Origin: an uncultured Bacteroidota bacterium
Lineage (GTDB): Bacteria; Bacteroidota; Bacteroidia; Bacteroidales; P3
Direction: 5' to 3'
NCBI GenBank assembly: GCA_902790215.1
Contig: CADAQX010000011.1
Span: 1 to 54,807 of the forward strand
Length of the DNA: 54,807 bases
Shown here one piece after another: positions 2,506 through 52,310 of this stretch (within the stretch, counting starts at the first letter, position 1; each line of letters starts with the position of its first letter). The notes below the pieces were generated by a model, which searched no databases, had not been told where the DNA came from, and worked only from the letters and a program-made list of their open reading frames with translations. The position numbers and the translations under genes are program-made.

Positions 2506-2632
2506 GGAATTAATTGAATTAATGGGGGTAATGGAATTAATGGAATTAATTGAATTGATGGAATTAATTGATTCTTTTTTCAATTTTCAATTTTTTTCTT
2601 TTTTCAATTTTCAATTTTCAATTTTTTTTGGG
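2506..2632. repeat. Tandem 9-bp array followed by 7-bp array
   Basis: Seven consecutive 9-bp units run from 2506 to 2568 (GGAATTAAT, TGAATTAAT, GGGGGTAAT, GGAATTAAT twice, TGAATTGAT, GGAATTAAT). They are followed from about 2580 by heptamers of TCAATTT broken by T-runs. The block fills the spacer between the lipoprotein start (2489) and the stop of the aldo/keto reductase (2618) and reaches the last codons of the reductase. Confidence 0.85.
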
Positions 2633-3658
2633 GTTTAGTTGGTCTTTTTTGGACCAGTGGGCCATGAAGTCGTCGTAGTTGCGTTGGAGGAGGTTGGGGG
2701 TGTCGAGGTTGTAGGGGCATTTGTCGCGGCATTGTCCGCAGCGGAGGCATTGCTTGACTTGCTGCATCTTTTCGTAGAATTCGTCGGTGAGATAGACGCT
2801 ATAGGGGGCGCGGCGGAGGAAGAGGTACATGCGGTTGCAGCTCTCGATTTCGATGCCGGCGGGGCAGGGCTGGCAGTAGCCGCAGCCACGGCAGAAGTCG
2901 CCGCTGAGCTCCTGACGGTCTTTCTCGATGCGGGCACGCATGTCGTCGGTGAGGACAGGGGGATTGCTCTGGAAGGAGATGAATTCGTCGAGCTCGCTCT
3001 CGCGCTGGATGCCCCAGATGGGCTCGACATGGGGGAACTGCGCCAGGTAGGCGTAGGCGGTGGCGGCATGGTTGATGAGGCCGCCGGCAAGGCTTTTCAT
3101 GGCGATGAAGCCCATGTCGTGCTCTTTGCACAGGTTGACGAGGTCCAGCTCTTTGTCGGATGCCAGGTAGGAGAAGGGGAATTGGAGGGTCTCGTAGAGG
3201 CCGCTGTCGATGGCTTCGTGCGCCACGGCGAGGCGGTGGTTGGTGATGCCGATGTGGCGCACTTTGCCCTGCTCGCGGGCTTGGAGCATGGCCTCGTAGA
3301 GGCCGGTGCCGTCGCCGGGCTTGGGACAGAAGGCGGGGTTGTGGAACTGGTAGAGGTCGATGTAGTCGGTGCGCAGGAGGCGGAGGCTGGTGTCGAGGTC
3401 GCGCCAGAAGCCGTCGGCGGTGGTGGCGCCGGTCTTGGTGCTGATGACGACGCGGTCGCGGCGGTCGGCGAAGGCGGCGCCGAGCTTCTCCTCGCTGTCG
3501 GTGTAGAAACGGGCAGTGTCGAAGTAGTACATGCCGTTGTCGAGGGCTTTATGGAGCAGGTGGACGGTGTCGGCCAGGGAGATGCGCTGGATGGGGAGGG
3601 CGCCGAAGCCGTTTTTGGGGACTATTAGTTCCGATTTGCCGAGTCTTACTGTGGTCAT
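2618..3658 (-). CDS. Aldo/keto reductase with C-terminal 4Fe-4S ferredoxin domain
   Basis: Encodes 346 residues from ATG at 3658 (MTTVRLGKSELIV). The frame stays open upstream, but only through a repeat array, so the internal start is preferred. Residues 1-240 are an aldo/keto reductase barrel with the usual tetrad: Asp47 in YFDTARFY, Tyr52, Lys75 in STKTG and His106 in YQFHNP. Residues 256-275 carry CRGCGYCQPCP plus Cys274, and 304-314 carry CLRCGQCRDKCP, two cysteine clusters that should bind iron-sulfur centres. Family members are putative NAD(P)H-linked oxidoreductases of unknown substrate; the fused iron-sulfur domain suggests coupling to one-electron carriers. The gene lies downstream of secA in the same direction, separated by about 100 bp of repeats, so it may be a separate unit. 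Confidence 0.92.
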   Translation of the reverse strand: MTTVRLGKSELIVPKNGFGALPIQRISLADTVHLLHKALDNGMYYFDTARFYTDSEEKLGAAFADRRDRVVISTKTGATTADGFWRDLDTSLRLLRTDYIDLYQFHNPAFCPKPGDGTGLYEAMLQAREQGKVRHIGITNHRLAVAHEAIDSGLYETLQFPFSYLASDKELDLVNLCKEHDMGFIAMKSLAGGLINHAATAYAYLAQFPHVEPIWGIQRESELDEFISFQSNPPVLTDDMRARIEKDRQELSGDFCRGCGYCQPCPAGIEIESCNRMYLFLRRAPYSVYLTDEFYEKMQQVKQCLRCGQCRDKCPYNLDTPNLLQRNYDDFMAHWSKKDQLNPKKN

Positions 3659-3671
3659 TGTTTTGTTTTTT

Positions 3672-3752
3672 TTTAGATTTGATAGATACGATAGATATGA
3701 TAGATTTGATAGATACGATAGATTTTTCCTCTTTTCACTTTTCACTTTTCAC
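3672..3752. repeat. 9-bp array (GATAGATAC type) plus TTTTCAC heptamers
   Basis: Six 9-bp units run from 3672 to 3725 (TTTAGATTT, GATAGATAC, GATAGATAT, GATAGATTT, GATAGATAC, GATAGATTT). Three TTTTCAC heptamers follow at 3732-3752, ending just before the secA stop. The array lies between secA and the reductase start. On the minus strand it would read as an in-frame 5' extension of the reductase, which explains the longer open frame there. Confidence 0.85.
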
Positions 3753-3757
3753 TTTTC

Positions 3758-7093
<3,336 letters not shown>

Positions 7094-8563: not shown

Positions 8564-8596
8564 AGGATGAACTAGGATGTATTAGGATTTTATAGG
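8564..8596. repeat. 10-bp tandem array
   Basis: Three 10-bp units (AGGATGAACT, AGGATGTATT, AGGATTTTAT) and the start of a fourth end exactly at the stop codon of the RsmI-like gene (8597-8599). They fill half of the 73-bp gap to the PLP-enzyme gene. Confidence 0.75.
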
Positions 8597-10296: not shown

Positions 10297-10300
10297 GGTT

Positions 10301-14678: not shown

Positions 14679-14797
14679 TCAATTCTCAATTCTCAATTCT
14701 CAAATCTCAATTCTCAAATCTCAAATCTCAATTCTCAATTCTCAAATCTCAAATCTCAATTCTCAATTCTCAAATCTCAATTCTCAAATCTCAATTC

Positions 14798-14800
<3 letters not shown>
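14679..14800. repeat. Heptanucleotide array, 17 units of two variants
   Basis: Seventeen contiguous 7-bp units occupy 14679-14797. Each is either TCAATTC (T) or TCAAATC (A), in the order T T T A T A A T T A A T T A T A T. The following TCA (14798-14800) is the complement of the glnS stop codon. The array fills most of the spacer between glnS and the glycosyltransferase gene. Confidence 0.95.
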
Positions 14801-16764: not shown

Positions 16765-16786
16765 GGAGTTGACATAAATGCTTTAC

Positions 16787-16917
16787 GAATTGAAAATTGA
16801 AAGTTGAAAATAGTGATTAGTGAATAGTGAAAAGTGAAAAGTGAAAAGTGATTAGTGATTGCTCAATTCACAATTCACAATTCACATTTCACAAAATTTC
16901 AATTTTCAATTTTTAGA
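16787..16917. repeat. Heptamer hairpin array
   Basis: The left half reads in 7-bp steps (GAAAATT-type, then AGTGATT, AGTGAAT, AGTGAAA three times, AGTGATT twice). The right half carries the complementary kind (AATTCAC repeats, then TCAATTT repeats), so the block can fold on itself. It ends in the last codons and stop of the barrel gene at 16913. Confidence 0.8.
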
Positions 16918-18721: not shown

Positions 18722-18813
18722 TGTTTTAAGAATGTGTAAACGTGTGAATGTGTTAGTCTTTTTGATTAACGAATTAATGAATTCATTTTTTCAATTCTCA
18801 ATTCTCAATTTTT

Positions 18814-18818
<5 letters not shown>
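18722..18818. repeat. 8-bp and 7-bp arrays
   Basis: Eight-base units (GAATGTGT, AAACGTGT, GAATGTGT; then TTAACGAA, TTAATGAA) are followed by heptamers of TCAATTC and TCAATTT. They reach the stop of the lipoprotein gene at 18814. Confidence 0.7.
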
Positions 18819-19524
<706 letters not shown>

Positions 19525-25033: not shown

Positions 25034-25069
25034 ATGTGTTTTTTATTATTATTGTTATCAGTTTTTTTT

Positions 25070-25156
25070 ATTGCTTGATTGTCTGATTGCTTGATTGTTT
25101 GAGTAATTTGACCGCGCCAGCACTCAAGCATTTACACAATCAAGCATTCAAGCAAT
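25070..25156. repeat. 8-bp-unit hairpin element, family B, copy 1
   Basis: Left arm units GATTGCTT, GATTGTCT, GATTGCTT, GATTGTTT pair imperfectly (about 27 of 35 positions) with right arm units AAGCATTT, ACACAATC, AAGCATTC, AAGCAAT. The loop carries TTTGACCGCGCCAGC, shared with the copy at 44481. Heptamers of TCAATTT follow at 25165-25195 and run into the C-terminal codons of the M20 gene. Confidence 0.85.
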
Positions 25157-25172
25157 AGTTTATTTTCAAATT

Positions 25173-26252
25173 TCAATTTTCAATTTTCAACTTTATTAGA
25201 TTAATTAGGATGTGTGCGGCGGGTTCAATCAGTGCATCGGGGAAGTTGTAGTCGGGGTGGTGCAGTTCGGGCTGTTTCTCGCCGGAGCCGATGCCGAACA
25301 TGGCACCGGGGAAGATCTGCAGGTAGTGGGCAAAGTCTTCGGACCAGCGGAAAGGGGTGAGCAGGTGGCGGTAGCGGCAGTTGCAGTGCTGCTCGATGTT
25401 TTCGACTATGTCGGAGCGGTTTTCGGTGGCGGGGAACGGGTCGCGCAGGGTGTGGGTGACATCCAGCTTGTGTTGTGCGGCGATGTCGGCGGCGATGCTG
25501 TTGGCCTCGGCCAGCAGCTGCTCCATGACGGTGTTGGAGAAAGCACGGAGTGTGAACATGATGTCGGCTTGTCCGGCAGAGGTGCCGAAGGCTTCTTGGC
25601 CCAGTTGCACGCAGATGAGTGTGCTTTGGCGGAAGTGGTCGAGGTCGGTCTCGTTGTGGTTGTTGAGCCGGTTGAAGGCTTGAATGATTTCGGCGGTGGC
25701 GAGTCCGGGGTTGATGCCTTTCTCGGGGGTGGAGGCATGGGTGCTGCGGCCTTTGAGGCGGTAGATGATGCCTGTGGAGGCGGCGGCGAAGGTGCGGAGG
25801 TTGAGCACCACGGTGCCAAGGGGGAATCCGGGCAGGTTGTGGTAGCCGTAGATGCATTGTATGTTGTATTGCTGCAGGATGCCGGAGTCGAGTATTTTCT
25901 GAGCCCCGGTGCCGGTCTCTTCCTCGGGCTGGAAGATGAGGATGACGGTGTGGCCCGGTGCGGGTTTCTTCTTCCCAAGCCATTGTGCGGTTTGCAGCAG
26001 TATGGCGGTGTGGCCGTCGTGGCCGCAGCGGTGGCCGGAGGGCAGTGCGTCGATGTCGCCCCGGATGGCGATGGCGGGGTGGGAAAGTTCCGTGCCCCAC
26101 ACGGCGATGACCCCGAATCCTCCCACATGGGTATAGACTTTGTCGGGATGACATGCGGCGAGTTCACGCACGATGAGGTCGTGGGCGAAGTGTTCGTCGC
26201 CTGAGATGCCGGGATGGGCGTGCAGTTCGTGTCGTATTTCGGTGGATGTCAT
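25173..26252 (-). CDS. M20-family amidohydrolase
   Basis: Encodes 359 residues from ATG at 26252; longer frames upstream overlap murD2 and carry no family similarity. M20D landmarks: HELHAHPGISGDE near the N-terminus, IAIRGDIDALP, GHRCGHDGHTA (Cys76 and His78 as metal ligands), FQPEEETGTGA (Glu110-Glu111, catalytic base and ligand) and YGYHNLPGFPLG. The dimerisation domain sits in the middle. Relatives hydrolyse N-acyl amino acids, hippurate or aminoacyl dipeptides with Zn or Mn. No signal peptide, so cytosolic. Its ATG overlaps the murD2 stop (ATGA), suggesting a role linked to peptidoglycan peptide or N-acyl-glutamate metabolism. The last residues (KLKIEN) come from the heptamer array. Confidence 0.9.
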   Translation of the reverse strand: MTSTEIRHELHAHPGISGDEHFAHDLIVRELAACHPDKVYTHVGGFGVIAVWGTELSHPAIAIRGDIDALPSGHRCGHDGHTAILLQTAQWLGKKKPAPGHTVILIFQPEEETGTGAQKILDSGILQQYNIQCIYGYHNLPGFPLGTVVLNLRTFAAASTGIIYRLKGRSTHASTPEKGINPGLATAEIIQAFNRLNNHNETDLDHFRQSTLICVQLGQEAFGTSAGQADIMFTLRAFSNTVMEQLLAEANSIAADIAAQHKLDVTHTLRDPFPATENRSDIVENIEQHCNCRYRHLLTPFRWSEDFAHYLQIFPGAMFGIGSGEKQPELHHPDYNFPDALIEPAAHILINLIKLKIEN

Positions 26253-27556: not shown

Positions 27557-28958
27557 GTTGCTGGATTAAGTTGACGAGCGCAGGGCTCAGGTTGTGGCGG
27601 GGTTGGAGAGTGGTGAGGACTGTGGATTGCGTGGCGACGGGTGTGTAGCCTTCGAGCAGGACTGGGCGGTGGTTGGGATACCAGCGCTCGACAGCCATGC
27701 TCAGGGCGGTGTTCACTTCATCGATAGTGCCTACGCACTCAAAGGGTTTGGTCTCTGCGTGGCCGGTCAGCTCGTTGAAGAATTGAAGCATGGCAGGGTC
27801 GTCGAGCATATTCTTGCCAAAGATGGTGTCGAGCTGTTGCGGCGGAATGAAAGGGGAGAGGATGATGTAGGCGAACAGGCATTTGGCGCAACGCCCGCAC
27901 CAAATGTCCTCCTTGCTGCCCGCGTTGCAGCTGCGGAAAACGGGATGGTACTTCCCGTAGCGGCTGAAGAGCATGGCAATCTGCAGCTCGGAAAGGGGAC
28001 GGAGAAAACTGAAATAGTTGTATTGCGGCGAGACATGCTCTGCCACATAGCTGCGGAAGTCGTTCTCGAATTCGAGACTCTTGGAGTATTGGTGGTTGAC
28101 GCCGCTTTCTGCCACGGTGGCCTCGTTGGCGCTGCTTTCGTTGGAAAGGGCTATGTTGGGTATGCCGCTCAGCTGCGAGGCCAACAGGGTGTAGAAGGCC
28201 AGCATGGCGCTGAAGGGGGTGTGGCCGTTGAGGCATCCTTGGCTGTTGAGCTCAAGCAGGCGGGGGTGGATGCTGCGGTGGATGACAAGGACATCTTCCA
28301 TCGAATACCCTGCCGCTTCGATGCAGCCGATGGTGGCTCCGCGCGGGTTCATGATGAGCGGCACAGGGCGCTTCCCGCCAGCCAGATAGTCGGAGAGCAG
28401 CTCGAGCGTCACCACCGAGTCCTTGCCTCCCCCGATGGGAACCAAGTAGTTCGCTTGATTGCTTGAATGCTTGAATGCTTTAGTGAATGCTTGATTGCTT
28501 GAATGCTTGATTGTTTGAGTGTTTTCACTCAGGCATTCAGGCATTAACACATTCAAGCAATCAATTTCTAAAAAGTCCTCGATGGTGGCGTGGATGCCGT
28601 TGATGTAAAAGAACTCCCCCAAGCCGTTGAAGTAAATTTTCTTCCAAAAGTCAATCTGGCTGTCGGAGAGCGAGCCGCATTTCACCACTACCTTTGGCGG
28701 GCACAGGCATTTCCAGTAGCTAATCAGCTCTATCATGCCCATGTTGAACACCAGCGTGTCCATTGTTTCCTTGGGCTGGTCGAAGTTGAGGAACGGCCGT
28801 TTAGGGACAAAGGCCGTGGGGGTGAACAGGATGCTGTCGCCGATGCGGAAGGTAAAAACGATGTGCAGCCCGTCGGACTGCACATCGTATTGGTAACACT
28901 CATAGACAAACTCGGGGTATGTCTGGCGGAACGCGTCGTATTTTGTCTGGTTTGACAT
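27534..28958 (-). CDS. murL: MurL-like UDP-MurNAc-L-Ala-L-Glu epimerase with in-frame repeat insertion
   Basis: Encodes 474 residues. An N-terminal domain (1-130) is followed by a PP-loop-like nucleotide site PIGGGKDSVVTLELL (GGGKDS at 176-181), NESSANEATVAESGVNHQYSKSLEFE, and a cysteine pair motif DIWCGRCAKCLFAY near 370. This layout matches what I recall of MurL, which activates the terminal L-Glu of UDP-MurNAc-L-Ala-L-Glu with ATP and inverts it to D-Glu. The overlap with a murD gene supports it. Residues about 131-168 are encoded by an 8-bp-unit hairpin repeat and read as a low-complexity linker (NQAFTKAF with two KHSSNQ copies) just before the ATP site. Either the protein tolerates this insertion or its activity is affected. 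Confidence 0.78.
   Translation of the reverse strand: MSNQTKYDAFRQTYPEFVYECYQYDVQSDGLHIVFTFRIGDSILFTPTAFVPKRPFLNFDQPKETMDTLVFNMGMIELISYWKCLCPPKVVVKCGSLSDSQIDFWKKIYFNGLGEFFYINGIHATIEDFLEIDCLNVLMPECLSENTQTIKHSSNQAFTKAFKHSSNQANYLVPIGGGKDSVVTLELLSDYLAGGKRPVPLIMNPRGATIGCIEAAGYSMEDVLVIHRSIHPRLLELNSQGCLNGHTPFSAMLAFYTLLASQLSGIPNIALSNESSANEATVAESGVNHQYSKSLEFENDFRSYVAEHVSPQYNYFSFLRPLSELQIAMLFSRYGKYHPVFRSCNAGSKEDIWCGRCAKCLFAYIILSPFIPPQQLDTIFGKNMLDDPAMLQFFNELTGHAETKPFECVGTIDEVNTALSMAVERWYPNHRPVLLEGYTPVATQSTVLTTLQPRHNLSPALVNLIQQHVQAATT
28452..28565. repeat. 8-bp-unit hairpin element, family B, inside murL
   Basis: Units GCTTGATT, GCTTGAAT (twice), GCTTTAGT, GAATGCTT, GATTGCTT, GAATGCTT, GATTGTTT, then GAGTGTTTTCACTC as a tight turn, and complementary units CATTCAGG, CATTAACA, CATTCAAG, CAATCAAT. 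It lies wholly inside the murL reading frame without a stop or shift. Confidence 0.88.
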
Positions 28959-31305: not shown

Positions 31306-31318
31306 ATTCGTTAAAATG

Positions 31319-31421
31319 ATTGCTTGATTGTCTGATTGCTTGATTGTTTGAGTATAATGAACGCGTCAGCCACTCAAGCATTCAGGAATTCTCAATTCTC
31401 AATTCTCAAATCTCAATTCCC
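31319..31421. repeat. Family B hairpin copy (right arm truncated) plus heptamers
   Basis: GATTGCTT, GATTGTCT, GATTGCTT, GATTGTTT and a loop with TGAACGCGTCAGCCACTC match the copies at 25070 and 44481. The right arm breaks off and is replaced by TCAATTC/TCAAATC heptamers (31391-31417), which end 8-12 bases before the S41 lipoprotein ATG. Confidence 0.85.
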
Positions 31422-36009: not shown

Positions 36010-36131
36010 GTTGATAAGTTGAGGATTGCTTGAATGAAGGTTTTAGGGTATCAAACCCTTAATCCCTCAAACCTTCAATCCCTCAATCCCTTAAGCAATC
36101 AAGCATTCAAACAATATCTCAACGTATCAAC
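36010..36131. repeat. Large hairpin, family B-like, copy 4
   Basis: Ends GTTGATAAGTTGAG and CTCAACGTATCAAC pair at 13 of 14 positions. Inside, GATTGCTTGAATG faces GCAATCAAGCATTC, and the centre carries AGGGTATCAAACCCTTAATCC with repeated CCTCAA-type units. It has no TTTGACCGCGCCAGC loop, so it is only partly like the other copies. Confidence 0.75.
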
Positions 36132-36269
36132 AATTCAGTGAGACGCTTGCCTCTTCGCGCGGAAGTTACTATTTATTCTGTGAGGGATAACGCCAACTTT
36201 CGTCAGCTTTCCGATAGTGTCGGATATTTGTCCCCAACGTTCCTCAGTGCGCCTTCAGGGCTCGGTGTT

Positions 36270-36378
36270 GCGTCGTTCTTTGTCATATCGTTTTTCGATA
36301 TGTTTCCCATCGTTTTCCCTTTGTGAAACGGAAAACGAGTGGAAAACGATCGAATAACGATCGAATAAATGACGACGC
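36270..36378. repeat. 11-bp-unit palindrome related to 16590-16711
   Basis: Two 49-bp arms (36270-36318 and 36330-36378) pair at about 39 positions around an 11-base loop. The right arm steps in 11s: GGAAAACGAGT, GGAAAACGATC, GAATAACGATC, GAATAAATGAC, GACGC. The words GGAAAACGAT and ATCGAATAA recur in the 16590-16711 element. Confidence 0.8.
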
Positions 36379-36568
36379 TTGAGGGAGATTGCATGAATGC
36401 TTGAATGTGTTTTGTTGATATGTTGATATGATGCGAGCCGTATAAACTTATAAACTTATCAACGGACAACGTATTTACACAATCAAGCAATCGTCGTATT
36501 ATCAGCAAATTAACACGTTAACGAAATAACGAATTCATTAAAAAGTTCTTGTTTGTTATTTTTTTTCG

Positions 36569-36605: not shown

Positions 36606-37448
36606 ATGTCTAATAAATACATCGGAGCCCATGTCAGTGCGTCGGGAGGCGTGGGAAACGCCGTTCTCAACGCCGAGGCCATCGGTGCCACGGCTTTTGC
36701 CCTCTTCACCCGCAACCAGCGCAGCTGGGTGAGCAAGCCGCTGCCGCAGCAGGAAATCGACGGCTTCAAGGCCTTGCTGCTTGAACGCGGCTTTGAACCC
36801 AAGTATGTGCTGCCGCACGACAGCTACCTTATCAATCTCGGCTCGCCCGACGAGGAGACCCTTGCCAAGAGCCGTGCGGCTTTTCTCGACGAGATGCACC
36901 GTGCCCAGTTGCTGGGGCTGACCATGCTTAATTTCCACCCGGGCAGCCACCTTAACCGCATCAGCGAGGAGGAATGCCTTGACCAGATTGCCCGCGAAAT
37001 AAACCTTGCCCTGAGTCAGACCGAAGGCGTCACCGCCGTCATCGAGAACACCGCAGGACAAGGCACCAACCTGGGATGGCGTTTTGAGCATATTGCCCGC
37101 ATTATCGAGGGTGTCGATGACAAGAGCCGCGTGGGTGTGTGTATCGACACATGCCACACGTTGGCGGCGGGCTACGACCTCAGCACCGAGATGGGCTATC
37201 AGTTCACCATGGAGGAATACGAGCGTGTCATCGGCCTCAAATACCTTCGTGCCGTACACCTCAACGACAGCAAGAAGGGTGCCGGCAGCCATGTCGACCG
37301 CCATGAGACACTTGGCAACGGAGCCCTGGGTCGCGACTTCTTTGTCCGCTTTATGAACGACAGCCGTTTCGACAACATGCCTATCATTCTCGAAACGCCC
37401 GACCCCTCCCGCTGGGCAGACGAAATACGCTGGCTTTTTGAATTGTGA
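36606..37448 (+). CDS. nfo: Endonuclease IV (AP endonuclease)
   Basis: Encodes 280 residues from ATG at 36606, the normal size of Nfo; the in-frame upstream start would read through the promoter. Endonuclease IV cuts DNA 5' to abasic sites in base-excision repair with three Zn ions. Metal-site motifs are present in order: [76 protein letters not shown] and ILETPDP. The last codons (FEL) and stop fall inside a heptamer array that continues to the start of the next gene, 28 bp downstream. Confidence 0.97.
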
Positions 37449-37476
37449 ATTTTGAATTGTGAATTTTGAATTGAAA
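37440..37476. repeat. Heptamer array bridging nfo stop and T9SS gene start
   Basis: Units GAATTGT, GAATTTT, GAATTGT, GAATTTT, GAATTGA run from the last nfo codons, include its TGA, and end three bases before the ATG at 37477. The whole intergenic distance is therefore repeat. Confidence 0.9.
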
Positions 37477-40400
37477 ATGGCAGCGTTTGGGAAAATAAAA
37501 ACCAATATTCTGAAACTAAAAACCGGCATTGTCCTTTTAGTTTTTAGTTTTTTCTTTTTACCTTCCTACGCGCAGCCCACGGTCATTCACGGCTATGAGT
37601 TCACCACGGGGGTGGATTCGTCGCTGTGGTACGACATGAGTGTATCCACACCGTGGACACTGATGCCCTATGCCATATACCAGCTTCCTTTCTCTTTCTT
37701 CTTTTTCGACAGGGATTTCACGGAGGTGAGGGTTTGCTGGGACGGCTCGTTGCTCTTTTCTTCCCAGGGGAGCAATACTCCGTACAGTTATTTTCCTGGT
37801 CAGGCGGGGCAAATCGGGGGGATGGGTGTTTTTGGCTACAGGAACACTTACTACACTCCTTATCTGTTTGTGGTGCCTATGCTGACTGCGGAGTTTGGGG
37901 ACGACGGTCACCGTGTGGTGGTTATCCAGCTCTACAGCTTTTTGAACGCCAGCCTTTCGAACAATTTCCAGATACAGTTGCGCGAGGAGGACTATTCCGT
38001 CACGTTGGTTTATGGCGAAAGGGAATTTGTTGGCAGTACACCGTCGTGCATCGGGTTGTTGTTTGACACCAACCACATCGCCGTTGTCAATCAAAACAGT
38101 CACACGGTGTTGCCTCAAGCCACAGGGACGGCATCAACTTCATGGCCTGGCCAATACCGTTATTACCGTTTTGTGCCGAGCGATACAATATGCCCAAACC
38201 CCAGAGAGGTTTCGGCTCAGCCTGTATGGGAGAGCGACAATGATATTCTTGTGACGTGGAATACGTGTTCCTTAGTTGACAGCTTCAGGGTGGAGTATGG
38301 ACCCACGGGCTTTGCCGAAGGAAGCGGCACCAGCATGTTGGTGGACGAACCCCAGGCTTTGATACAGGATTTGCACACGGTGGAGGAGACAGAGGTTCGG
38401 GTATATTCCCGTTGCCTGTATGGTGAAAGCGGATATGACAGCACCACAGTCGTTACTTGTCCCGCTCCTGCGGGTCTCACGGTGTCGAATGTCAGCCTGA
38501 CAAGCGATGACCTTTGGCTGAGGTGGGACGGTATGCCGCGCTATCATAGTTACAGGGTGGAGTATGGGTCTCCCGGCTTTGCCGAGGGGTCAGGTGTCAC
38601 GGCATTGGTCGATACTAATTATCTCATGTTGCCGACTCTGTCGCCTGGTGAGCAATACGAGGCGCGGGTGTATGCCGGTTGTACATACGGCGAGAGCGAC
38701 TATGCCAGTATTCTGTTCAGTGTCCCCTGTGCATTGCCGGCGGGCAACAGGTTGCATTATTCCAGCCTTTATTCCGACGGTGTCAGGTGTTGCACGGGTT
38801 TTTTCCATACTCCCGCCACGGTCTATTCCCCAGCACACATTGTTGATTCGGGCAGTGGCTCGGCAGGCTCGAGGCACACCGTCCATACCGACACGTCGGA
38901 GCGCGACCCGCGCACGGGGAATCTGCTGCGCACTGTGCCCGATGGTTTCTGCTCGTCGGTGAGGCTGGGCAACTGGCGGGGTGGCGGGGAGCAGGAAAGT
39001 ATTTTTTATACTATTGATGTAGATACCAACGATTTCGACCTGCTCATCCTCCGCTATGCGTTGGTGGAGGAACAGCCCAATCACGTCCCGCAGGACCAGC
39101 CTCATTTTGATCTTGACATCACTACGCCCGAAGGTGTCAGCATCAGCCCCTGCTATCATGGCAATTTTGTTTCGGGCGACTTGTCGGGCTGGAACACGGT
39201 GCCGGATTCCTACGGTGTTCTTTGGCGGGACTGGGATGCCGTGGGGGTGGATCTTTCCCCCTTGCACGGACAGACTATTGTCGTCGCTCTTTCAAACTAC
39301 GACTGTGGTTTTCAGGCTCATTACGGCTATGCCTATTTTACATTGCAGACCGGTACCAAGCGCATCCTTGCAGAGAACTGCGGGAACAGTGTGGTGAATA
39401 CGTTCCGTGCGCCGCAGGGGTTCGCTTACCGCTGGTACTCGGCAGCGGACACGACTGCCACGCTCTCCACGGCCGACACGCTCCATGTGACTGCGGTGGG
39501 TGACTACGGCTGCCATGTCACCTACCAGCTCTCTAACCAGGTGTGCGGTTTCAATCTCTCCACTTATGCCGGCGGGCGTTACCCGGTGGCTGCCTTTGCC
39601 ATGCAGCCGCTTGACTCGTGTGGCTCGCGGATGAGATTTGTCAACCAGAGCGTCATCGCTCGCGATTCCGCCCACACGCAGCTGACGAATTTCCCGTGCG
39701 ACGGGTGTATTTGGGTTATCGACGACAGTATCACTACTTCTGCCACCCACCCTTCGCTAAGTTTTGCCGAGGGTACCCACACGGTGACGCTCTATGCGAT
39801 GCTGGCGGGAGGGGTTTGTGTCGATTCGGTCAGGCAGTCTTTTTCCGTGACGATTGAGCGCGACACCATCCGTGCCGCCGTCTGCGAGGGGGAGAGCTAC
39901 CGTTTTTTCGGACAGGAATTGGCCGAGGCGGGAGAGTACCGGCATCAGACCGACTGCCGGCACACGGTCCTCTACCTTGAGGTGAACCCGGTTTATTCCA
40001 TGCCTGTCTATGACACTTTTGTGTTGGGTACGGCTTTTCGTTTTGATGATGGTGAGTATAGGCTGCCGGGGGTTTATACAAGGCATTACACGACCGCCGA
40101 TGGATGTGACAGCGTCTTTACGATTTATCTCAGTTGTTTCGACATGAGGGACACCACTGTGTGTGTGTCGACGCTTCCCATCGAGTGGCATGGGGTGACC
40201 TTTTCCGAAGGGGGAGACGACACGCTGCTGCTTGCCAGTGCAGGCGGGACTGACAGCATCGTGGTGCTGAACGTGCATGTGCTCGGGTTGCCAGAGCTGA
40301 GCCTCGACCCCGAGCTTTATTGCCGCATGCCGGGGGGATACAGTCTTTCCTTGCCCGACACCCTGTGCTACCAACTCTCAACCCTCAATTCTCAATTCTC

Positions 40401-41061
40401 AATTCTCAATTCTCAATTTTCATTCTTCCTGTCGCCTGCGGACACCACTGTCTATATCCTGACAGCGGACTATTGCGACTCGGTGCCGGGGATGGCTTTT
40501 GTGTCTTGCCCGTGGCGCGACACGCTGCTGCTCGCCCCTGTGGCGGCGGTGGATGCCAGCCTGGGTGTCTCGCCTCTGCAAATAGACGAGGATAATCCCA
40601 GTGTCACGGCTGTCGACCTCACCTCTCAGCCTCATGCGCGGCAGTGGTATATTGATTCCGTACCGCTCCTTTCGCAAGACAGTGTCGTCACTTATCGTGC
40701 AACCCCGTCGTGCGACAGTGTGCGGGTGATGCTGGTGGTGAACACCGATGTGTGTGCCGACACGGCATGGGCTTCCGTGCCGGTGAGGATTCAGGTGCTC
40801 TGGTTCCCCAATGTCTTTACGCCCGACGAGCCCACGAACAACCTGTTCCGAGGCTACGGCACCCGTGTGAAGGACTATGAACTGAGCGTCTATACCCGCT
40901 GGGGCGACTGCATCTTCAGGACTAAGGATATCAACGAGGGCTGGGACGGCACCTGTCACGGCGTGCGCAGCCCGGCGTCGGCCTACCCCTATGTGTGCCG
41001 CTACACCACACTGGAGGGCGAGCCCCGCACGGTGAGTGGCACTGTGGCATTGGTGAGATGA
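37477..41061 (+). CDS. Giant T9SS type B (gliding-type C-terminal domain) surface protein 1
   Basis: Encodes 1,194 residues from ATG at 37477 (MAAFGKIKTN, same start as the paralogue downstream). A signal peptide ends LPSYAQP. The body contains two fibronectin-III-like modules (about 235-415, with RVEYGPTGFAEGSGT and RVEYGSPGFAEGSGV), a jelly-roll-like region (about 430-640, GTKRILAENCGN), a PKD-like segment, and Cys-Asp-Ser repeats. The C-terminal 88 residues (LWFPNVFTPDEP, ELSVYTRWGDCIFRT, EGWDGTCHG) are the gliding-motility-type T9SS sorting domain. Such proteins are exported through T9SS and held on the cell surface or released as adhesins. Residues about 967-980 (STLNSQFSILNSQF) are encoded by a heptamer array. 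The gene is a tandem paralogue of the next one. Confidence 0.92.
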   Translation: MAAFGKIKTNILKLKTGIVLLVFSFFFLPSYAQPTVIHGYEFTTGVDSSLWYDMSVSTPWTLMPYAIYQLPFSFFFFDRDFTEVRVCWDGSLLFSSQGSNTPYSYFPGQAGQIGGMGVFGYRNTYYTPYLFVVPMLTAEFGDDGHRVVVIQLYSFLNASLSNNFQIQLREEDYSVTLVYGEREFVGSTPSCIGLLFDTNHIAVVNQNSHTVLPQATGTASTSWPGQYRYYRFVPSDTICPNPREVSAQPVWESDNDILVTWNTCSLVDSFRVEYGPTGFAEGSGTSMLVDEPQALIQDLHTVEETEVRVYSRCLYGESGYDSTTVVTCPAPAGLTVSNVSLTSDDLWLRWDGMPRYHSYRVEYGSPGFAEGSGVTALVDTNYLMLPTLSPGEQYEARVYAGCTYGESDYASILFSVPCALPAGNRLHYSSLYSDGVRCCTGFFHTPATVYSPAHIVDSGSGSAGSRHTVHTDTSERDPRTGNLLRTVPDGFCSSVRLGNWRGGGEQESIFYTIDVDTNDFDLLILRYALVEEQPNHVPQDQPHFDLDITTPEGVSISPCYHGNFVSGDLSGWNTVPDSYGVLWRDWDAVGVDLSPLHGQTIVVALSNYDCGFQAHYGYAYFTLQTGTKRILAENCGNSVVNTFRAPQGFAYRWYSAADTTATLSTADTLHVTAVGDYGCHVTYQLSNQVCGFNLSTYAGGRYPVAAFAMQPLDSCGSRMRFVNQSVIARDSAHTQLTNFPCDGCIWVIDDSITTSATHPSLSFAEGTHTVTLYAMLAGGVCVDSVRQSFSVTIERDTIRAAVCEGESYRFFGQELAEAGEYRHQTDCRHTVLYLEVNPVYSMPVYDTFVLGTAFRFDDGEYRLPGVYTRHYTTADGCDSVFTIYLSCFDMRDTTVCVSTLPIEWHGVTFSEGGDDTLLLASAGGTDSIVVLNVHVLGLPELSLDPELYCRMPGGYSLSLPDTLCYQLSTLNSQFSILNSQFSFFLSPADTTVYILTADYCDSVPGMAFVSCPWRDTLLLAPVAAVDASLGVSPLQIDEDNPSVTAVDLTSQPHARQWYIDSVPLLSQDSVVTYRATPSCDSVRVMLVVNTDVCADTAWASVPVRIQVLWFPNVFTPDEPTNNLFRGYGTRVKDYELSVYTRWGDCIFRTKDINEGWDGTCHGVRSPASAYPYVCRYTTLEGEPRTVSGTVALVR
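37515..37562 (+). repeat. 7-bp-unit hairpin encoding the signal-peptide core, T9SS protein 1
   Basis: ACTAAAA (37515-37521) pairs with TTTTAGT (37535-37541), which is followed by further units TTTTAGT, TTTTTCT, TTTTACC up to 37562. The right arm codes for the hydrophobic core LLVFSFFFLP. Confidence 0.75.
40378..40419 (+). repeat. Heptamer array inside T9SS protein 1 coding sequence
   Basis: Six 7-bp units: TCAACCC, TCAATTC four times, TCAATTT (42 bp, 14 codons). It lies about 380 bp upstream of the sorting-domain codons. The corresponding stretch of the paralogue has unrelated, non-repetitive coding sequence. Confidence 0.92.
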
Positions 41062-41074: not shown

Positions 41075-41181
41075 ACTAAAAGGTAAAAACTAAAAATGGC
41101 AGCTATTGTGAAAATAAAAACCAATATTCTGAAACTAAAAACCGGCATTGCCCTTTTAGTTTTTGGTTTTTACATTTTACC
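41075..41181 (+). repeat. 7-bp-unit inverted array around the start of T9SS protein 2
   Basis: The left arm ACTAAAA, GGTAAAA, ACTAAAA (41075-41095) ends immediately before the ATG. The right arm TTTTAGT, TTTTGGT, TTTTACA, TTTTACC (41154-41181) codes for the signal-peptide core. The two arms are made of complementary heptamers. Confidence 0.82.
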
Positions 41182-44458: not shown

Positions 44459-44480
44459 TTAAATTGAAAAGTGAAAAATG

Positions 44481-44568
44481 ATTGCTTGATTGTCTGATTG
44501 CTTGAACGCTTGAGTGATTTGACCGCGCCAGCCACTCAGGAATTAACACAATCAAGCATTCAAGCAAT
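44481..44568. repeat. Family B hairpin copy 5 between convergent genes
   Basis: GATTGCTT, GATTGTCT, GATTGCTT, GAACGCTT on the left and ACACAATC, AAGCATTC, AAGCAAT on the right, with loop ATTTGACCGCGCCAGCC as in copy 1. Flanked by heptamer-like bits (TGAAAAG, TGAAAAA; TCAATTC), it fills the gap between the T9SS gene and the dehydrogenase gene. Confidence 0.87.
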
Positions 44569-44583
44569 AATTCAATTCTCAAC

Positions 44584-48027: not shown

Positions 48028-48036
48028 TTATCCACA
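48028..48036 (+). promoter_or_regulatory. DnaA box TTATCCACA
   Basis: Exact match to the strong consensus DnaA box TTATCCACA. Confidence 0.65.
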
Positions 48037-48244
48037 AACGACGGTTAAAAAGAATGCTTCTGCAAGCACATGTTTTTGGTTGGAAAAAACGGGTTCCCCC
48101 GACGGAGGGCAGGTGGGTCGCATGGTCTGCAATCCTGCGGCGACGCTTGTCCGGCGGCGGTTCGGAACAGGTGTGCACACACGATTGTGGAACCCATTTG
48201 TAAATTTTTTTATCAAAAAGTACTAATATATTAAAATAAAAGAG

Positions 48245-48252
48245 TAACTTTG
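48245..48252 (+). promoter_or_regulatory. Promoter -7 element for serC
   Basis: TAACTTTG (TAnnTTTG) followed by CAGTCTG, 63 bp upstream of the serC ATG, in AT-rich DNA. Confidence 0.65.
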
Positions 48253-48314
48253 CAGTCTGAAACAATTGGGAAAAAAATCAAAATTATAATATAACCTATT
48301 TAAATTCAAATCAA

Positions 48315-49430
48315 ATGAAAACAGCTTATAATTTCAATGCAGGTCCCTGCGTCCTGCCCAAAGAGGCCATTGAGTCCACTATCAATGCCATTCGCGACTT
48401 CGACAACACCGGTATCGGTCTGCTCGAGATTTCCCACCGTACCCCTGGCTGGGAGCGCACCATGGAAGAAACCCGCCAGCTGTGGCGCGACCTGTTGAAC
48501 ATCCCCGCCGAATACGAAATCCTTTTCCTCGGTGGTGGTGCCAGCACTGGCTTTATGGATGTCCCTGCCAACCTTCTTAACAAGAAAGCTGCTTACCTGC
48601 AGACTGGTGTGTGGGCCAAGAAAGCCGCCAAAGAGGCTAAGAACTTCGGCGAGACCGTGATTGTCGCTTCTTCCGAGGACAAGACCTACAGCTACATCCC
48701 CAAGGGTTGGACCGTTCCTGCCGACGCCGACTACTTCCACATCACCACTAACAACACCATCTACGGTACCGAGATCCGCAAGGACTTTGCTGCCAACGAG
48801 ATTAACAACGTGATGCTTGTTGCCGATATGAGCTCCGACATCATGAGCCGTCCCGTCGACGTGAAGAAGTATGGTCTCATCTATGGCGGTGCCCAGAAGA
48901 ATGTCGGCCCTGCCGGTGTCACCTTCTACATCGTCCGCAAGGACATCCTCGGCAAGATCACCGACCGCAAGTACATGAACCCCCTGCCCACCATGGTGGA
49001 CTTCCGAACCCACGCTGCTGAAGAGGCCAAGAACATCTCCATGTTCAACACTCCTCCGGTGAGCGCCATCTTCGTGATGCACGAGACCCTGAAATGGGTT
49101 AAGAACACCATCGGCGGCGTAGCTGAGATGGAAAAAATCAACCTCAAGAAGAGCGCCCTGCTTTATGAGGAAATCGACCGCAACACCATGTTCCGTGGCA
49201 CCGTCGAGAAGGAAGACCGTTCCATCATGAACCACTGCTGGGTGATGGCCGAGGGTCGCGAGAACCTCGAGGCCGACTTCATGGCCTTCGCCAAGGAGCG
49301 CGGCATGGTTGGTATCAAGGGTCACCGCAGCGTCGGCGGCTTCCGTGCCAGCCTCTACAACGCTTGCCCCATCGAGGCCGTCGAGGCTCTCGTCCAGTGC
49401 ATGCAGGACTTCGAGAAAGCTCATAAGTAA
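48315..49430 (+). CDS. serC: Phosphoserine aminotransferase
   Basis: Encodes 371 residues, the usual length. SerC converts 3-phosphohydroxypyruvate plus glutamate to phosphoserine in serine biosynthesis and also acts in pyridoxal phosphate synthesis. Landmarks: [11 protein letters not shown] at the N-terminus, [22 protein letters not shown] (phosphate binding), [12 protein letters not shown] (Asp to the PLP ring), and [12 protein letters not shown] with the Schiff-base Lys. The C-terminus [20 protein letters not shown] matches the family. Codon choice is strongly biased to C-ending codons, as expected of a highly expressed gene. serA follows, interrupted by a four-helix-bundle gene. Confidence 0.98.
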
Positions 49431-49435
49431 TTTGA

Positions 49436-49495
49436 GTGATTAGTGAATTGTGAATGGTGAATTGAGACCGATTCGCTATTCACAATTCTTCCATC
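49436..49495. repeat. Heptamer hairpin array upstream of the four-helix-bundle gene
   Basis: GTGATTA, GTGAATT, GTGAATG, GTGAATT, a short loop, then ATTCACAATTC complementary to the left arm. Begins 5 bp after the serC stop. Confidence 0.82.
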
Positions 49496-49510
49496 AATGT
49501 TTTCTCGAAA

Positions 49511-49885
49511 ATGTACCATCGTGACTTGAATGTTTGGAGAGAGGGTATTGAACTGGTGAAGATGACATATAAGTTGTTGGAACAGTTCCCCAAGAATGAG
49601 GAGTTTGCTCTCTCTTTTCAGATACGAAAGTCTGTGGTTTCAATACCTTCTAATATAGCAGAAGGGTGTGGCAGGGATTCAGACAAGGAATTATATCATT
49701 TTTTGGGTGTTTCCGCAGGATCTCTGGCCGAATTGGAGACCCAATTATATATAGCGAAGGAATTAGGCTATATTGATGATACAACAGAGGTTGAAAACAA
49801 AATGATGGCTGTTCAGAAATTACTTACAGGCTTTAAAAAGTATATTAAAACAAATATTGATAATCAAGAATCTGTGAAGAAGTGA
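49511..49885 (+). CDS. Four-helix-bundle protein (S23/Avd-like family)
   Basis: Encodes 124 residues of the small four-helix-bundle family first seen as an open frame in 23S rRNA intervening sequences and related to Avd of diversity-generating retroelements. Typical pieces: LNVWREGIELVKMTYKLLE, SFQIRKSVVSIPSNIAEGCG, LYHFLGVSAGSLAELETQLY, IAKELGYID. The pentameric Avd binds nucleic acid; the role of stand-alone copies is unknown. The coding DNA is much more AT-rich than serC and serA on either side and uses A/T-ending codons, suggesting separate acquisition. It is flanked on both sides by arrays containing ATTCACAATTC and splits an otherwise tight serC-serA pair. No reverse transcriptase or template repeat was found nearby. 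Confidence 0.9.
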   Translation: MYHRDLNVWREGIELVKMTYKLLEQFPKNEEFALSFQIRKSVVSIPSNIAEGCGRDSDKELYHFLGVSAGSLAELETQLYIAKELGYIDDTTEVENKMMAVQKLLTGFKKYIKTNIDNQESVKK

Positions 49886-49893
49886 ACTCTTGC

Positions 49894-49921
49894 AATTCAC
49901 AATTCACAATTCACAATTCAC
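49894..49921. repeat. AATTCAC heptamer array before serA
   Basis: Four exact AATTCAC units fill the gap between the four-helix-bundle gene and serA. If a GTG at 49882 were used, the array would encode an N-terminal extension (containing SQFTIHNSQ), but the ATG at 49930 is the likely start. Confidence 0.92.
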
Positions 49922-49929
49922 AAAAAACA

Positions 49930-50850
49930 ATGAAGATATTAGTTGCTACCGAAAAACCCTTTGCTAAGGTTGCTGTTGACGGCATTCGCGAAGTGGTTGA
50001 GAAGAATGGCCACGAACTGGCTCTTCTCGAGAAATACACCGACGTGAACGACTTCTATAAAGCCGTTGCCGATGCCGACGCTCTCATCGTCCGCTCCGAC
50101 AAGGTCACCAAGGAGGTCATTGACCACGCCAAGAACCTGAAAATCGTCGTGCGTGCCGGTGCCGGTTACGACAACCTCGACCTCGAGGCCTGCACTGCCC
50201 GTGGCATCGTTGCCATGAACACTCCTGGCCAGAACAGCAACGCCGTCGCCGAGCTGGTCATGGGCATGCTTGTCTATGCCGTCCGCAACTTCTACAATGG
50301 CAAGAGCGGCTCCGAGCTTATGGGCAAGAAACTGGGTATCCTCGCCTTCGGTAACGTGGGACGCAATGTAGCCCGTATCGCCAAGGGATTTGGCATGGAT
50401 GTCTATGCCTACGACGCATTCCTCACTGCCGAGCAGATCAACTCCAGCGCGATGGCCAAGGCCGTCCCCAGCCAGGAAGCTCTGTTCGAGACTTGCGACA
50501 TCGTCTCCCTGCACATCCCCGCTACCGCCGAGACCAAGCAGAGCATCAACTACGACCTCGTAGGCAAGATGCACAAGGGCGGTATCCTCGTCAACAGCGC
50601 CCGCAAGGAAGTCATCGACGAGGCTGGTCTGCTCAAGCTGATGGCCGAGCGCACCGACCTGAAGTACATCACCGACATCATGCCCGATGCCGATGCCGAG
50701 TTCAAGGCTTTTGAAGGCCGCTACTTCGCCACCCCCAAAAAGATGGGTGCCCAGACCGAAGAGGCCAACATCAACGCCGGTATTGCAGCCGCCAACCAGA
50801 TCTGCGATTTCTTCGCCACCGGCTGCACCAAATTCCAAGTGAACAAATAA
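49930..50850 (+). CDS. serA: D-3-phosphoglycerate dehydrogenase, short form
   Basis: Encodes 306 residues from ATG at 49930 (MKILVATEKPF). SerA oxidises 3-phosphoglycerate to 3-phosphohydroxypyruvate with NAD, the first step of serine synthesis. Seen: RAGAGYDNLDL, AFGNVGRNVARI (NAD-binding GxGxxG variant), and LVNSARKEVIDE with the catalytic Arg. The usual catalytic His (TPHxGAxT in the family) is replaced: the segment reads TPKKMGAQTEEAN. I recall this form from other Bacteroidota, so it is probably functional. No C-terminal ACT domain, hence no serine-feedback domain. Pairs with serC upstream; a strong terminator follows. Confidence 0.95.
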   Translation: MKILVATEKPFAKVAVDGIREVVEKNGHELALLEKYTDVNDFYKAVADADALIVRSDKVTKEVIDHAKNLKIVVRAGAGYDNLDLEACTARGIVAMNTPGQNSNAVAELVMGMLVYAVRNFYNGKSGSELMGKKLGILAFGNVGRNVARIAKGFGMDVYAYDAFLTAEQINSSAMAKAVPSQEALFETCDIVSLHIPATAETKQSINYDLVGKMHKGGILVNSARKEVIDEAGLLKLMAERTDLKYITDIMPDADAEFKAFEGRYFATPKKMGAQTEEANINAGIAAANQICDFFATGCTKFQVNK

Positions 50851-50874
50851 TTTTTCATAGGGATTTTAAAGGTG

Positions 50875-50906
50875 GGGGGAAGGCTTTTGTCTTCCCCCTT
50901 TTTTTT
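50875..50906 (+). terminator. Intrinsic terminator after serA
   Basis: An 8-bp stem GGGGGAAG / CTTCCCCC with an 8-base loop is followed by eight T residues, 24 bp after the serA stop. Confidence 0.9.
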
Positions 50907-50923
50907 CATCACTCCCACCGTCA

Positions 50924-51862
50924 TTGCCCATGCTCTGCATCTTCAATCCCGAACACGACCTCTGCCTTGCCAACGGCAACCGCCACTTCATGCCGCCCTC
51001 GTCGGCCTTGCTGTTTGCCCGCGAGGGAGCCTCGATTATGCAGGTGGTGTATCCCGATGCGGTGGCAGTGCCGTCTATCCAGGCGGGGCAGGCCTATGCC
51101 GCCTTGGCCGATGGGACAGGCAGGCAGTGTGCTGGATGCCCTGCCATAGTGCCGTGGGGCTGGAACATCACCCTGAAGACTCAGCTGCTCAAAGCCGGCA
51201 TTCCCGCCGAGGCAATGCCCGACGACAGTCGTCTCGACCTCTGGCGGCAGCTGCAGCATCGCAGCACCCTGCTCCCCCTGCAGCCCGAAAGCCGTGCCGT
51301 CACCCTTCGCGACGAAGTGGAGGAAATGCTTGCGCTGCATGGCGACGTGGTGCTGAAAGCCCCGTGGTCGGGCTCTGGTCGCGGGTTGCGCTGGATTGGC
51401 AGCCGCATGACCGAGCACGACATCCGATGGATGGACAAGGTGGTCCGTGAGCAGCGATGCGTCATCGCCGAGCCTCGGCGCAGGGTGGCCGACGATTTTG
51501 CCCTTGAATACAGGGTACAGGGTGGCCGCCTGCTCTTTGTGGGCTATTCACTTTTTCAGTCCGAAAAAGGGGTCTATCGCTCCAATCTGCTGCTTGGCGA
51601 CGAGGCAATAGCCGCGCGCACAGGCTTTGCCGACCGGGAGAAGACTGAGCTGGAAGAGTGGCTGACCCTCCACATCGCACCGCACTACGAAGGTCCGTTG
51701 GGTGTGGATTGCATCCGAACAGAGGACGGCGTCGTTTTTGTGAGCGAGCTGAATCTGCGCCACACCATGGGACTGGTGGCGCACTGCTATCTGCAGCAGC
51801 ATCCCGAAGCCGAGGGTCGCTGCCTGACGCTCGAAGGCAAGAGGCTGTGTGTCGCCAGATAG
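50924..51862 (+). CDS. ATP-grasp-like protein, function unknown
   Basis: Encodes 312 residues. The middle and C-terminal parts have an ATP-grasp pattern: VVLKAPWSGSGRGLRWIG (glycine-rich nucleotide loop), CVIAEPRRRVADDFALEYRV, and GPLGVDCIRTEDGVVFVSELNLRHTMG, where Asp and the Glu-x-Asn pair would be Mg ligands. The N-terminus (MLCIFNPEHDLCLANGN) is characteristic of a conserved Bacteroidota group I know only as hypothetical. ATP-grasp enzymes join an acyl phosphate to an amine or thiol; the substrate is unknown. Met3 is an alternative start. The gene begins 18 bp after the T-run of the serA terminator, so it may depend on read-through or its own promoter. Confidence 0.78.
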   Translation: MPMLCIFNPEHDLCLANGNRHFMPPSSALLFAREGASIMQVVYPDAVAVPSIQAGQAYAALADGTGRQCAGCPAIVPWGWNITLKTQLLKAGIPAEAMPDDSRLDLWRQLQHRSTLLPLQPESRAVTLRDEVEEMLALHGDVVLKAPWSGSGRGLRWIGSRMTEHDIRWMDKVVREQRCVIAEPRRRVADDFALEYRVQGGRLLFVGYSLFQSEKGVYRSNLLLGDEAIAARTGFADREKTELEEWLTLHIAPHYEGPLGVDCIRTEDGVVFVSELNLRHTMGLVAHCYLQQHPEAEGRCLTLEGKRLCVAR

Positions 51863-52310
51863 CATGTCGGCATCCGTTGGCAGTTTGTTTGTCATTTCGT
51901 TATAGCTCTAATCGCTAAACAAAAATCGGTCATTAGACCGACTTCTAAACCTATAGTTTTGACAATTTTCCCCTTCGTTAGGCTACCGCCGTTGGGCAAG
52001 AGATGCTCCCTTCGTTCTTCGCTCGTTCTCCGCTCGTTCTTCGCTTTTAAAGCGAAGAACGAGCGAAGAACAACCGTGGAACGAGCGAGGAAAATACGGA
52101 GTATCAGTGTCTTTACGGTTTTGCATTGGTTTATTCTTATTTATTGTGGAATAAATGGGAAACGACAGTCGGGCTGGGAAGAAAACAAGACTGGGACAGC
52201 AGAAAGTGATGACGATATATTGTTTTGATAATCATTGTGTTTTGTATGTATAGTGTATGGTTTGTTTTAGGAAAATGATGAGAAAAACATGTTTTTTGGA
52301 ATTTTATTCG
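51863..52310. other. Gene-free spacer with large palindrome
   Basis: About 450 bp without a supported gene; the 89-codon frame at 51959-52228 is crossed by the palindrome at 52000-52096 and has no protein-like pattern. The remainder is AT-rich, with nothing else recognised before the promoter-like site at 52311. Confidence 0.65.
52000..52096. repeat. 11-bp-unit palindrome centred on TTTTAAA
   Basis: Inner arms of 23 bp (52025-52047 / 52049-52071) pair at 22 positions around a single T. The left arm is made of 11-bp units CGTTCTTCGCT, CGTTCTCCGCT, CGTTCTTCGCT, and pairing continues imperfectly outward. Same architecture as 16590-16711 and 36270-36378, with a different unit sequence. Confidence 0.83.

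Follow-up and report, generated by a model that had tools for sequence, protein, structure and literature searches.

Short-period repeat arrays in a Bacteroidales contig are probably the ends and gene-less derivatives of mobile elements with a single four-helix-bundle gene

Results

A one-gene element between two protein genes

The window analysed here is a whole contig of 54,807 nucleotides (CADAQX010000011.1, contig C11) from an uncultured Bacteroidota bacterium (Bacteroidales; P3), whose assembly (GCA_902790215.1; hereafter the host genome, G000) totals 2.98 Mb in 40 contigs and is 96.85% complete. Type IX secretion and sorting domains are encoded in this contig, and many of its spacers hold tandem arrays of short period. 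Two of these arrays enclose a small gene of the TIGR02436/PF05635 four-helix-bundle family, and this array–gene–array arrangement, referred to as the window element, is the starting point of the present work:

49436..49467, forward strand: left 7-bp array of sense units (GTGAATT type), then a short antisense stretch at 49471-49489 (Tandem Repeats Finder, array reading)
49511..49885, forward strand: TIGR02436/PF05635 four-helix-bundle gene (124 aa; L009), the only gene of the element (PF05635 E 1.1e-33; TIGR02436 E 3.2e-33)
49890..49931, reverse strand: right 7-bp array, antisense of the GTGAATT-type unit (Tandem Repeats Finder, array reading)

The element is bordered by an aminotransferase gene (48315-49430) and a 2-hydroxyacid dehydrogenase gene (49930-50850), both assigned by Pfam, which we take to be serC and serA, respectively. 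Upon folding of 49431-49931, the left and right array arms pair with each other (z -5.6). The L009 protein scores 114.2 bits against TIGR02436 (curated cut-off 24), and the two profiles also go under the labels 23S rRNA IVP, "S23", Avd-like four-helix bundle and "four helix bundle protein". Profile searches (Pfam, TIGR) revealed no nuclease or transposase domain in the element gene. Two relatives have crystal structures. The L009 model is close to 2gsc (TM 0.83-0.88) and also shares the 2rld fold; weaker matches, both with weak E-values, were obtained with Avd (4dwl, TM 0.73; 8ube_D, TM 0.71), and the profile similarity to Avd is weak and under the curated cut-off. According to a section of PMC4990558 and a reference title in PMC10053308, the 2gsc protein is a ring of five four-helix bundles. 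Six pairs of element proteins were compared. Their amino acid sequences are conserved, whereas synonymous divergence is saturated in all but one pair; that pair gives a ratio of nonsynonymous to synonymous substitution of 0.09.

Short-period arrays in the window spacers

On a gene map built for this analysis, an array was called at score 12 in spacers of at least 40 bp. This score was reached in 14 of the 24 spacers, with best periods of 7 bp (nine spacers), 8 bp (three), 9 bp (one) and 11 bp (one), compared with a mean of 0.30 (maximum 2) for 60 first-order shuffles and of 0.15 (maximum 1) when length-matched coding windows were drawn 60 times. A preliminary description of this DNA, made from its letters alone, had reported periodic arrays at gene boundaries, often inverted and too diverse to be copies of one sequence, and had proposed spacer shuffling as a check. 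Since shuffled spacers give almost no arrays, the arrays are real; their units do differ from one array to another, and inversion is borne out by folding, where five of six tested hairpins beat all 200 shuffles (z -4.6 to -7.3) and the sixth (36405-36465) folds no better than they do (z -1.6). Most of the arrays listed there have a 7-, 8-, 9- or 11-bp counterpart nearby in Tandem Repeats Finder, but the 10-bp array at 8564 (shuffle p 0.10) and the 8-bp array at 18722 (Tandem Repeats Finder score 34) are weak, and 16590, a hairpin of the 11-bp kind by eye, has no match with this program. The location at gene boundaries is valid for most arrays but not for those at 35214 and 40378, which sit within reading frames (35185-35922 and 37459-41061, respectively). 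Comparable arrays are also present in other parts of the host genome, of which samples were scanned. Across the window and two 20-kb stretches of the host genome, 13 pairs of neighbouring arrays have opposite sense; in 12 of these the sense array comes first, and some pairs combine different units.

Inverted arrays flank homologous genes across bacteria

The gene is associated with arrays across bacteria, with inverted pairing in most loci and an equal period on both sides. In the host genome, six PF05635 matches exceed the Pfam cut-off and three fall short of it. Inverted arrays border each of the five best-scoring genes, and the unit is different every time: GTGAATT, TGTTGATA (8 bp), GAATTGA, GAAAATT and an 8-bp TTAATTCG type. 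The sixth, L014, is devoid of flanking arrays and belongs to a conserved paralogue of ~145-160 aa, found once per fetched genome (L014, L176-L186; G000:C10:6841-7152 in the host). As an internal negative, this type reaches score 12 in 0 of 12 cases, one attaining 10.

A broader named set comprised the best 80 of 584 loci from one scan of genome contigs; by record titles, it spans ~17 phylum-level groups and includes one archaeal metagenome-assembled genome (MAG) with an array on the longer flank. In the 77 loci with usable flanks (the flanks of three are too short), an array occurs on either flank in 80.5% and on both flanks in 36%; among 138 distal windows from those loci the figures are 8.7% and zero, and 385 shuffles give 0.8% for either flank. 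Arrays thus flank these genes nine times more often than they occur in distal windows, which counts against the genes being incidental neighbours. In 57 of the 77 loci, the downstream flank resembles the inverted upstream flank more closely than the 95% point reached with swapped partners.

The pooled set consisted of 169 distinct homologues with a score above 60 (after collapsing identical proteins; lower scores were kept separate, and the L014-type loci L176 and L177 exceed 60 and are counted), namely 83 from the 80 named loci and 86 from the host and its relatives, the latter sampled among the matches listed. An array score of at least 12 is reached on either flank by 144 homologues (68 and 76, respectively) and on both flanks by 87 (31 and 56). 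Both-flank homologues have equal periods in 83 of 87 cases, versus a mean of 46.4 and a maximum of 55 when periods are shuffled. The arrays are polar, G-rich upstream (99/109) and C-rich downstream (107/122), and 155 of 231 have four to five units. Family members are present in 35 of 41 relatives and in 0 of 14 well-known control genomes. Matches were also found in 31 plasmid records, mostly cyanobacterial; among the 11 cyanobacterial loci read, ten reach score 12 on one flank and nine on both. Heptamers flank these cyanobacterial genes, and GGGAATC-type units flank those of Luteimonas and Dokdonella.

Two general properties of the units were considered and abandoned. A 5-nt core followed by contiguous variable bases was contiguous in 18 of 42 two-variable-column 7-bp arrays, where one third is expected by chance. 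As a general rule, a role in supplying stop codons was also discarded: a stop occurs in 101 of 144 sense units, in 88.3 shuffled units on average and again in 101 reversed units. As side observations, an element lies between cas6 and cas4 on plasmids of Anabaena sp. 90 and Pseudanabaena galeata (L218 and L222), and the reversed control pattern GGGCTAAGGGCTAAGGG has 153 matches in a Thiohalocapsa genome (G055, L120), where it is another heptamer family.

Period and unit appear to follow the protein clade within the genus

Within the genus of the host, period and unit appear to follow the protein clade rather than the genome. For 70 own-genus elements, protein distance correlates with unit distance (Mantel r 0.39, equalled by none of 2000 permutations; the 25 of the 169 homologues without a unit were omitted). 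All 22 members of one protein clade have 7-bp units, all 7 of another have 8-bp units, and a third has units of 8-12 bp. The mean unit distance is 0.55 between pairs from the same genome and 0.24 between similar proteins from different genomes. A separate alignment of 33 proteins excludes L014-L017 and L046. A second family, TIGR04258, goes with 9-bp units: a reading frame was found by motif in 20 of 31 loci (the other 11 were dropped), 17 of these 20 have arrays, and 22 of 26 arrays are of 9 bp. Its unit GATAGANNN matches the 9-bp array at 3674 in the window. Regarding dispersed copies, those three genomes where a gene of the TGTTGATA unit was read rank 1, 2 and 4 of 26 by TGTTGATA array count (181, 154, 48).

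Occupied sites, empty sites and gene-less hairpins

Occupied and empty versions of a site coexist among related genomes, together with gene-less hairpins, one of which has the unit of its own genome's element. The clearest case is the accB-accC gap of Luteimonas, read in 30 of the 31 genomes with accC (one is without the locus). It is empty in 17 (6-11 bp), holds a full element of 440-461 bp in six, a gene-less hairpin in two and another insert in five. Two sisters in the accC tree (bootstrap 98) differ, G064 being full and G075 empty. When units differ between accB-accC elements, both arms differ alike. The gene occurs in 7 of the 31 Luteimonas genomes and is single-copy in six of those seven. 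In G069, the accB-accC hairpin shares a GGCCAGG-type unit with the gene-bearing element elsewhere in the same genome, between genes that are presumably carA and carB. For comparison with a MITE of a known DNA transposon, which has terminal inverted repeats and a target-site duplication, the elements have inverted ends, and the empty gaps of 6-11 bp are too short for reading a duplication.

The serC-serA spacer was compared by eye (G009, L198, has no readable serC end). G000 and G012 share one element there, G006 has an element whose protein and unit are different, and the copy in G021 is decayed; in further species, several have gene-less hairpins of other units and others have no hairpin. More generally, the upstream neighbour of the element gene is co-directional in 110 of 121 cases (23 of 144 were omitted for lack of called neighbours on both sides), and the array starts at a median of -1 nt from the upstream stop codon, 56 of 84 falling within -10 to +15. 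Pattern matches run to hundreds per genome (181 in G000 for TGTTGATA, 341 in G042).

Window arrays assigned to element units

When the 34 window arrays were compared with eight element units, 25 scored above all 20 shuffles. Two of these are the ends of the window element itself and three are marginal (32444, 37535, 41072). The assignments are as follows:

2577..2625, reverse strand: 7-bp array, unit of L012 (unit comparison)
3674..3723, forward strand: 9-bp array, unit GATAGANNN of the TIGR04258 element L017 (unit comparison, TIGR04258 survey)
3731..3757, reverse strand: 7-bp array, unit of L012 (unit comparison)
14679..14800, reverse strand: 17-copy 7-bp array, unit of L011 (Tandem Repeats Finder, unit comparison)
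16786..16916, unstranded: nested hairpin, L012-type units outside and L009-type inside (by eye, unit comparison, fold)
18764..18813, reverse strand: 8-bp array of L013 type, then 7-bp array of L011 type (unit comparison)
25066..25157, unstranded: 8-bp hairpin, unit of L043 (G014), L172 (G021) and L169 (G022) (unit comparison, fold)
25162..25194, reverse strand: 7-bp array, unit of L012 (unit comparison)
28449..28565, unstranded: 8-bp hairpin, L043-like unit (unit comparison, fold)
31315..31421, unstranded: 8-bp sense array (L043-like), then 7-bp array (L011 type) (unit comparison)
36051..36132, reverse strand: 8-bp L043-like array, then a short L010-like stretch (unit comparison)
36408..36463, unstranded: 8-bp hairpin of L010 type (TGTTGATA), fold z -1.6 (unit comparison, fold)
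37435..37482, forward strand: 7-bp array, unit of L009, overlapping the start of reading frame 37459-41061 (unit comparison)
40372..40428, reverse strand: 7-bp array of L011 type, within that reading frame (Tandem Repeats Finder, unit comparison)
44479..44570, unstranded: 8-bp hairpin, L043-like unit (unit comparison, fold)
52012..52092, unstranded: 11-bp hairpin with loop CTTTTAAAG, matching no element unit (unit comparison, fold)

The nested hairpin at 16786-16916 would correspond to one element inside another. For the hairpin at 25066-25157, no gene bearing its unit was found among the homologues read in the host genome. Nine window arrays match no element unit (2504, 8563, 18730, 35240, 36345, 41104, 41154, 52012, 52051). 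Altogether, most of the 7- and 8-bp arrays and one of the two of 9 bp are accounted for by several element families that differ in unit and in four-helix-bundle gene.

The 11-bp hairpins form a class apart. Their pattern was matched at nine places in the host genome, with no gene between the arms at the nine places viewed. Among these hairpins (window 36270-36370 and 52012-52092; L330-L348), several have a CTTTTAAAG-like loop, and units differ within and between genomes of the genus. Samples of G016 contain 11-bp arrays and no others (no 7- or 8-bp array in 60 kb), and the only PF05635 match of this genome is of the array-free L014 type. The L014-type gene is a candidate factor for these hairpins.

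Two further repeats in the window lie in coding parts. A small inverted AAACTAAAAACC / TTTTAGTTTTTAG repeat is present at 37459-37600 and 41096-41180, in the apparent signal-peptide coding part of two large genes, and fourteen TTG triplets form a run at 18869-18910, within reading frame 18814-19524.

Discussion

Our results indicate that the arrays are probably the ends and gene-less derivatives of mobile elements with one four-helix-bundle gene, organised like RAYT/REPIN. A full element would measure ~0.45-0.5 kb and comprise a G-rich array (coding strand) of usually four to five units, the gene (of TIGR02436 or, where units are of 9 bp, of TIGR04258) and a second array made of the complementary unit. 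The protein, of which a solved relative forms a ring of five subunits, would bind its own units on one strand, and the presence of five subunits and of four to five units per array suggests that each subunit may hold one unit. A comparable arrangement is known for TRAP, which binds RNA with one unit per subunit on one strand. The protein would then mobilise its own element and, in trans, the hairpins with matching units. Elements would settle directly behind the stop codons of co-directional genes, where insertion may be either targeted or simply survived. The likeliest route would be a single-stranded hairpin intermediate (RNA or DNA) that is copied or inserted by host enzymes, and slippage may still lengthen the arrays.

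A number of observations weigh against this interpretation. Neither flank reaches score 12 in 25 of the 169 homologues; 20 of the 77 named loci and 8 of 33 host, genus and order loci fail to beat swapped partners, some of them carrying direct instead of inverted arrays. The contiguous core-plus-variable structure of the unit is unsupported (18/42). The correlation between protein and unit distances is not significant in the named set (249 of 2000 permutations as good), which we read as saturation. Gene and arrays are also at times dissociated: none of the homologues read in the host genome is a cognate of the L043-like 8-bp family seen in the window, the 11-bp class is without a cognate gene, and G014 has 57 TGTTGATA matches and no cognate gene among those read. 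Conversely, 20-kb samples of G015 and G024 contain no array of 7 or 8 bp even though both genomes have homologues, and the Luteimonas samples contain one 7-bp array in 400 kb, of which 260 kb come from gene-bearing genomes; array density in 20-kb samples was accordingly discarded as an uninformative measure of gene presence. Finally, no target-site duplication or fixed end is resolved, and movement is deduced from comparisons between genomes.

These points leave room for other explanations, which we consider in the light of the same data. An unlikely one is a regulon, in which a TRAP-like or Hfq-like RNA binder controls its own and many other messages through arrays in untranslated regions that spread by selection and slippage. 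The position of arrays at stop or start codons, their strand polarity, the usual four to five units and the ring shape of a solved relative, which could hold repeated units, all fit with such a role, and translational control by TAACTGA heptamers has been argued in Beggiatoaceae (MacGregor 2015, PMC4679880). However, a regulon hardly accounts for a complete gene with both inverted arms being present or absent at one operon gap of related species, for unrelated units occupying the serC-serA spacer of different species (by eye), or for pattern matches in the hundreds per genome.

It is considerably less probable that the elements are real and the four-helix-bundle gene is a passenger, the arrays being mobilised by another factor. 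The array-free gene of G016 alongside its 11-bp arrays, the single gene copy in most gene-bearing Luteimonas genomes and the lack of a nuclease or transposase domain speak for a passenger; the link of its clade with period and unit within the genus and the conservation of its amino acids speak against one. Least credible of all is an origin of the arrays by slippage or templated repair at any place in AT-rich spacers, with adjoining genes being incidental. Array length does vary, with a 17-copy expansion at 14679, yet the ninefold excess beside these genes, the inverted unit on the opposite side in most loci, the link between unit and protein clade, and the near absence of arrays in shuffled spacers are all at odds with it; moreover, arrays also occur in GC-rich hosts such as Luteimonas. 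The interpretation given in the preliminary description is upheld in part: its general hairpin-making polymerase or slippage process is not supported, as element families account for most 7- and 8-bp arrays. The co-occurring reverse transcriptase that it suggested looking for has no RVT_1 (PF00078) match in the host genome (other polymerases and primases were not searched for), and reverse transcription by a resident enzyme was rejected.

On a larger scale, the mobile-element interpretation can be extended to a proposal that we hold to be as open to failure as to success. In many bacterial phyla, and possibly in one archaeal MAG, a new class of mobile elements would rely on a ring-forming four-helix-bundle protein without known nuclease or polymerase, which would recognise arrays of its own 6-12-nt unit in single-stranded form and set their period. 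Acting in trans, it would bring gene-less hairpins, as well as itself, into gene junctions, and it would be the origin both of unexplained heptamer repeats (STRR-type and GGGAATC, perhaps also TAACTGA) and of rRNA intervening sequence (IVS) elements. If true, a widespread family whose members are annotated as no more than "four helix bundle protein" or "S23 ribosomal protein" gains a role, and the heptamer repeats of cyanobacteria, Xanthomonas and Beggiatoaceae gain a candidate source. As the period goes with the protein clade within the genus, recognition is directly testable with small proteins. In the literature searched, which did not cover bioRxiv, no paper links this protein family with dispersed arrays.

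Several known systems share part of these features. Avd of diversity-generating retroelements has the same fold and a weak profile similarity, and the likeness of PF05635 to Avd is noted in an excerpt of PMC10053308. Those retroelements differ by their reverse transcriptase, no RVT_1 match being found in the host genome (template and variable repeats were not searched for). The organisation is more reminiscent of REPIN/RAYT, which likewise combines a low-copy gene, many dispersed, inverted and gene-less hairpins, and matching ends. RAYT is an IS200/IS605-like Y1 transposase; in contrast, the only gene of the element described here encodes a four-helix bundle and no Y1 transposase (RAYT was not sought elsewhere in the genome), and its ends are arrays of 6-12-bp units, not REP palindromes.

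The IVS of 23S rRNA with S23p/IVP is the closest relative by protein, as it shares the family, a reading frame of this type between inverted ends that fold to a stem, and a suspected selfishness. In Coxiella, three tandem heptamers precede the start codon of S23p and their number varies between strains, as stated in a portion of Warrier 2016 (PMC4990558). An IVS, however, lies inside the 23S rRNA gene and is cut out of the RNA by RNase III. By contrast, the elements reported here lie between protein genes, end in short-period arrays, have dispersed gene-less copies and encode protein clades with their own units. An IVS location of the window element was rejected, its neighbours being two protein genes with no rRNA match: Rfam detected no rRNA in the window, in the five host element loci or in 12 of the 80 named loci, these 12 having mostly weak or missing arrays on a flank.

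Finally, the cyanobacterial STRR, the GGGAATC repeats of Xanthomonas and the TAACTGA repeats of Beggiatoaceae are likewise intergenic direct repeats of heptamers, with a length that varies between strains or species. Heptamer repeats have reportedly been described in cyanobacteria since about 1990, the STRR being intergenic tandem heptanucleotides of heterocystous species, and the heptamers on cyanobacterial plasmids may be of this published kind. The GGGAATC and GGGGATT heptamers of Xanthomonas and Nostoc were left unexplained, with no such gene tied to the repeats in the consulted parts of PMC4692102 or PMC4679880, and the author of the TAACTGA study speculated that a repeat-binding protein might itself be a mobile element (PMC4679880). 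Compared with these reports, the present work ties a gene to arrays of this kind.

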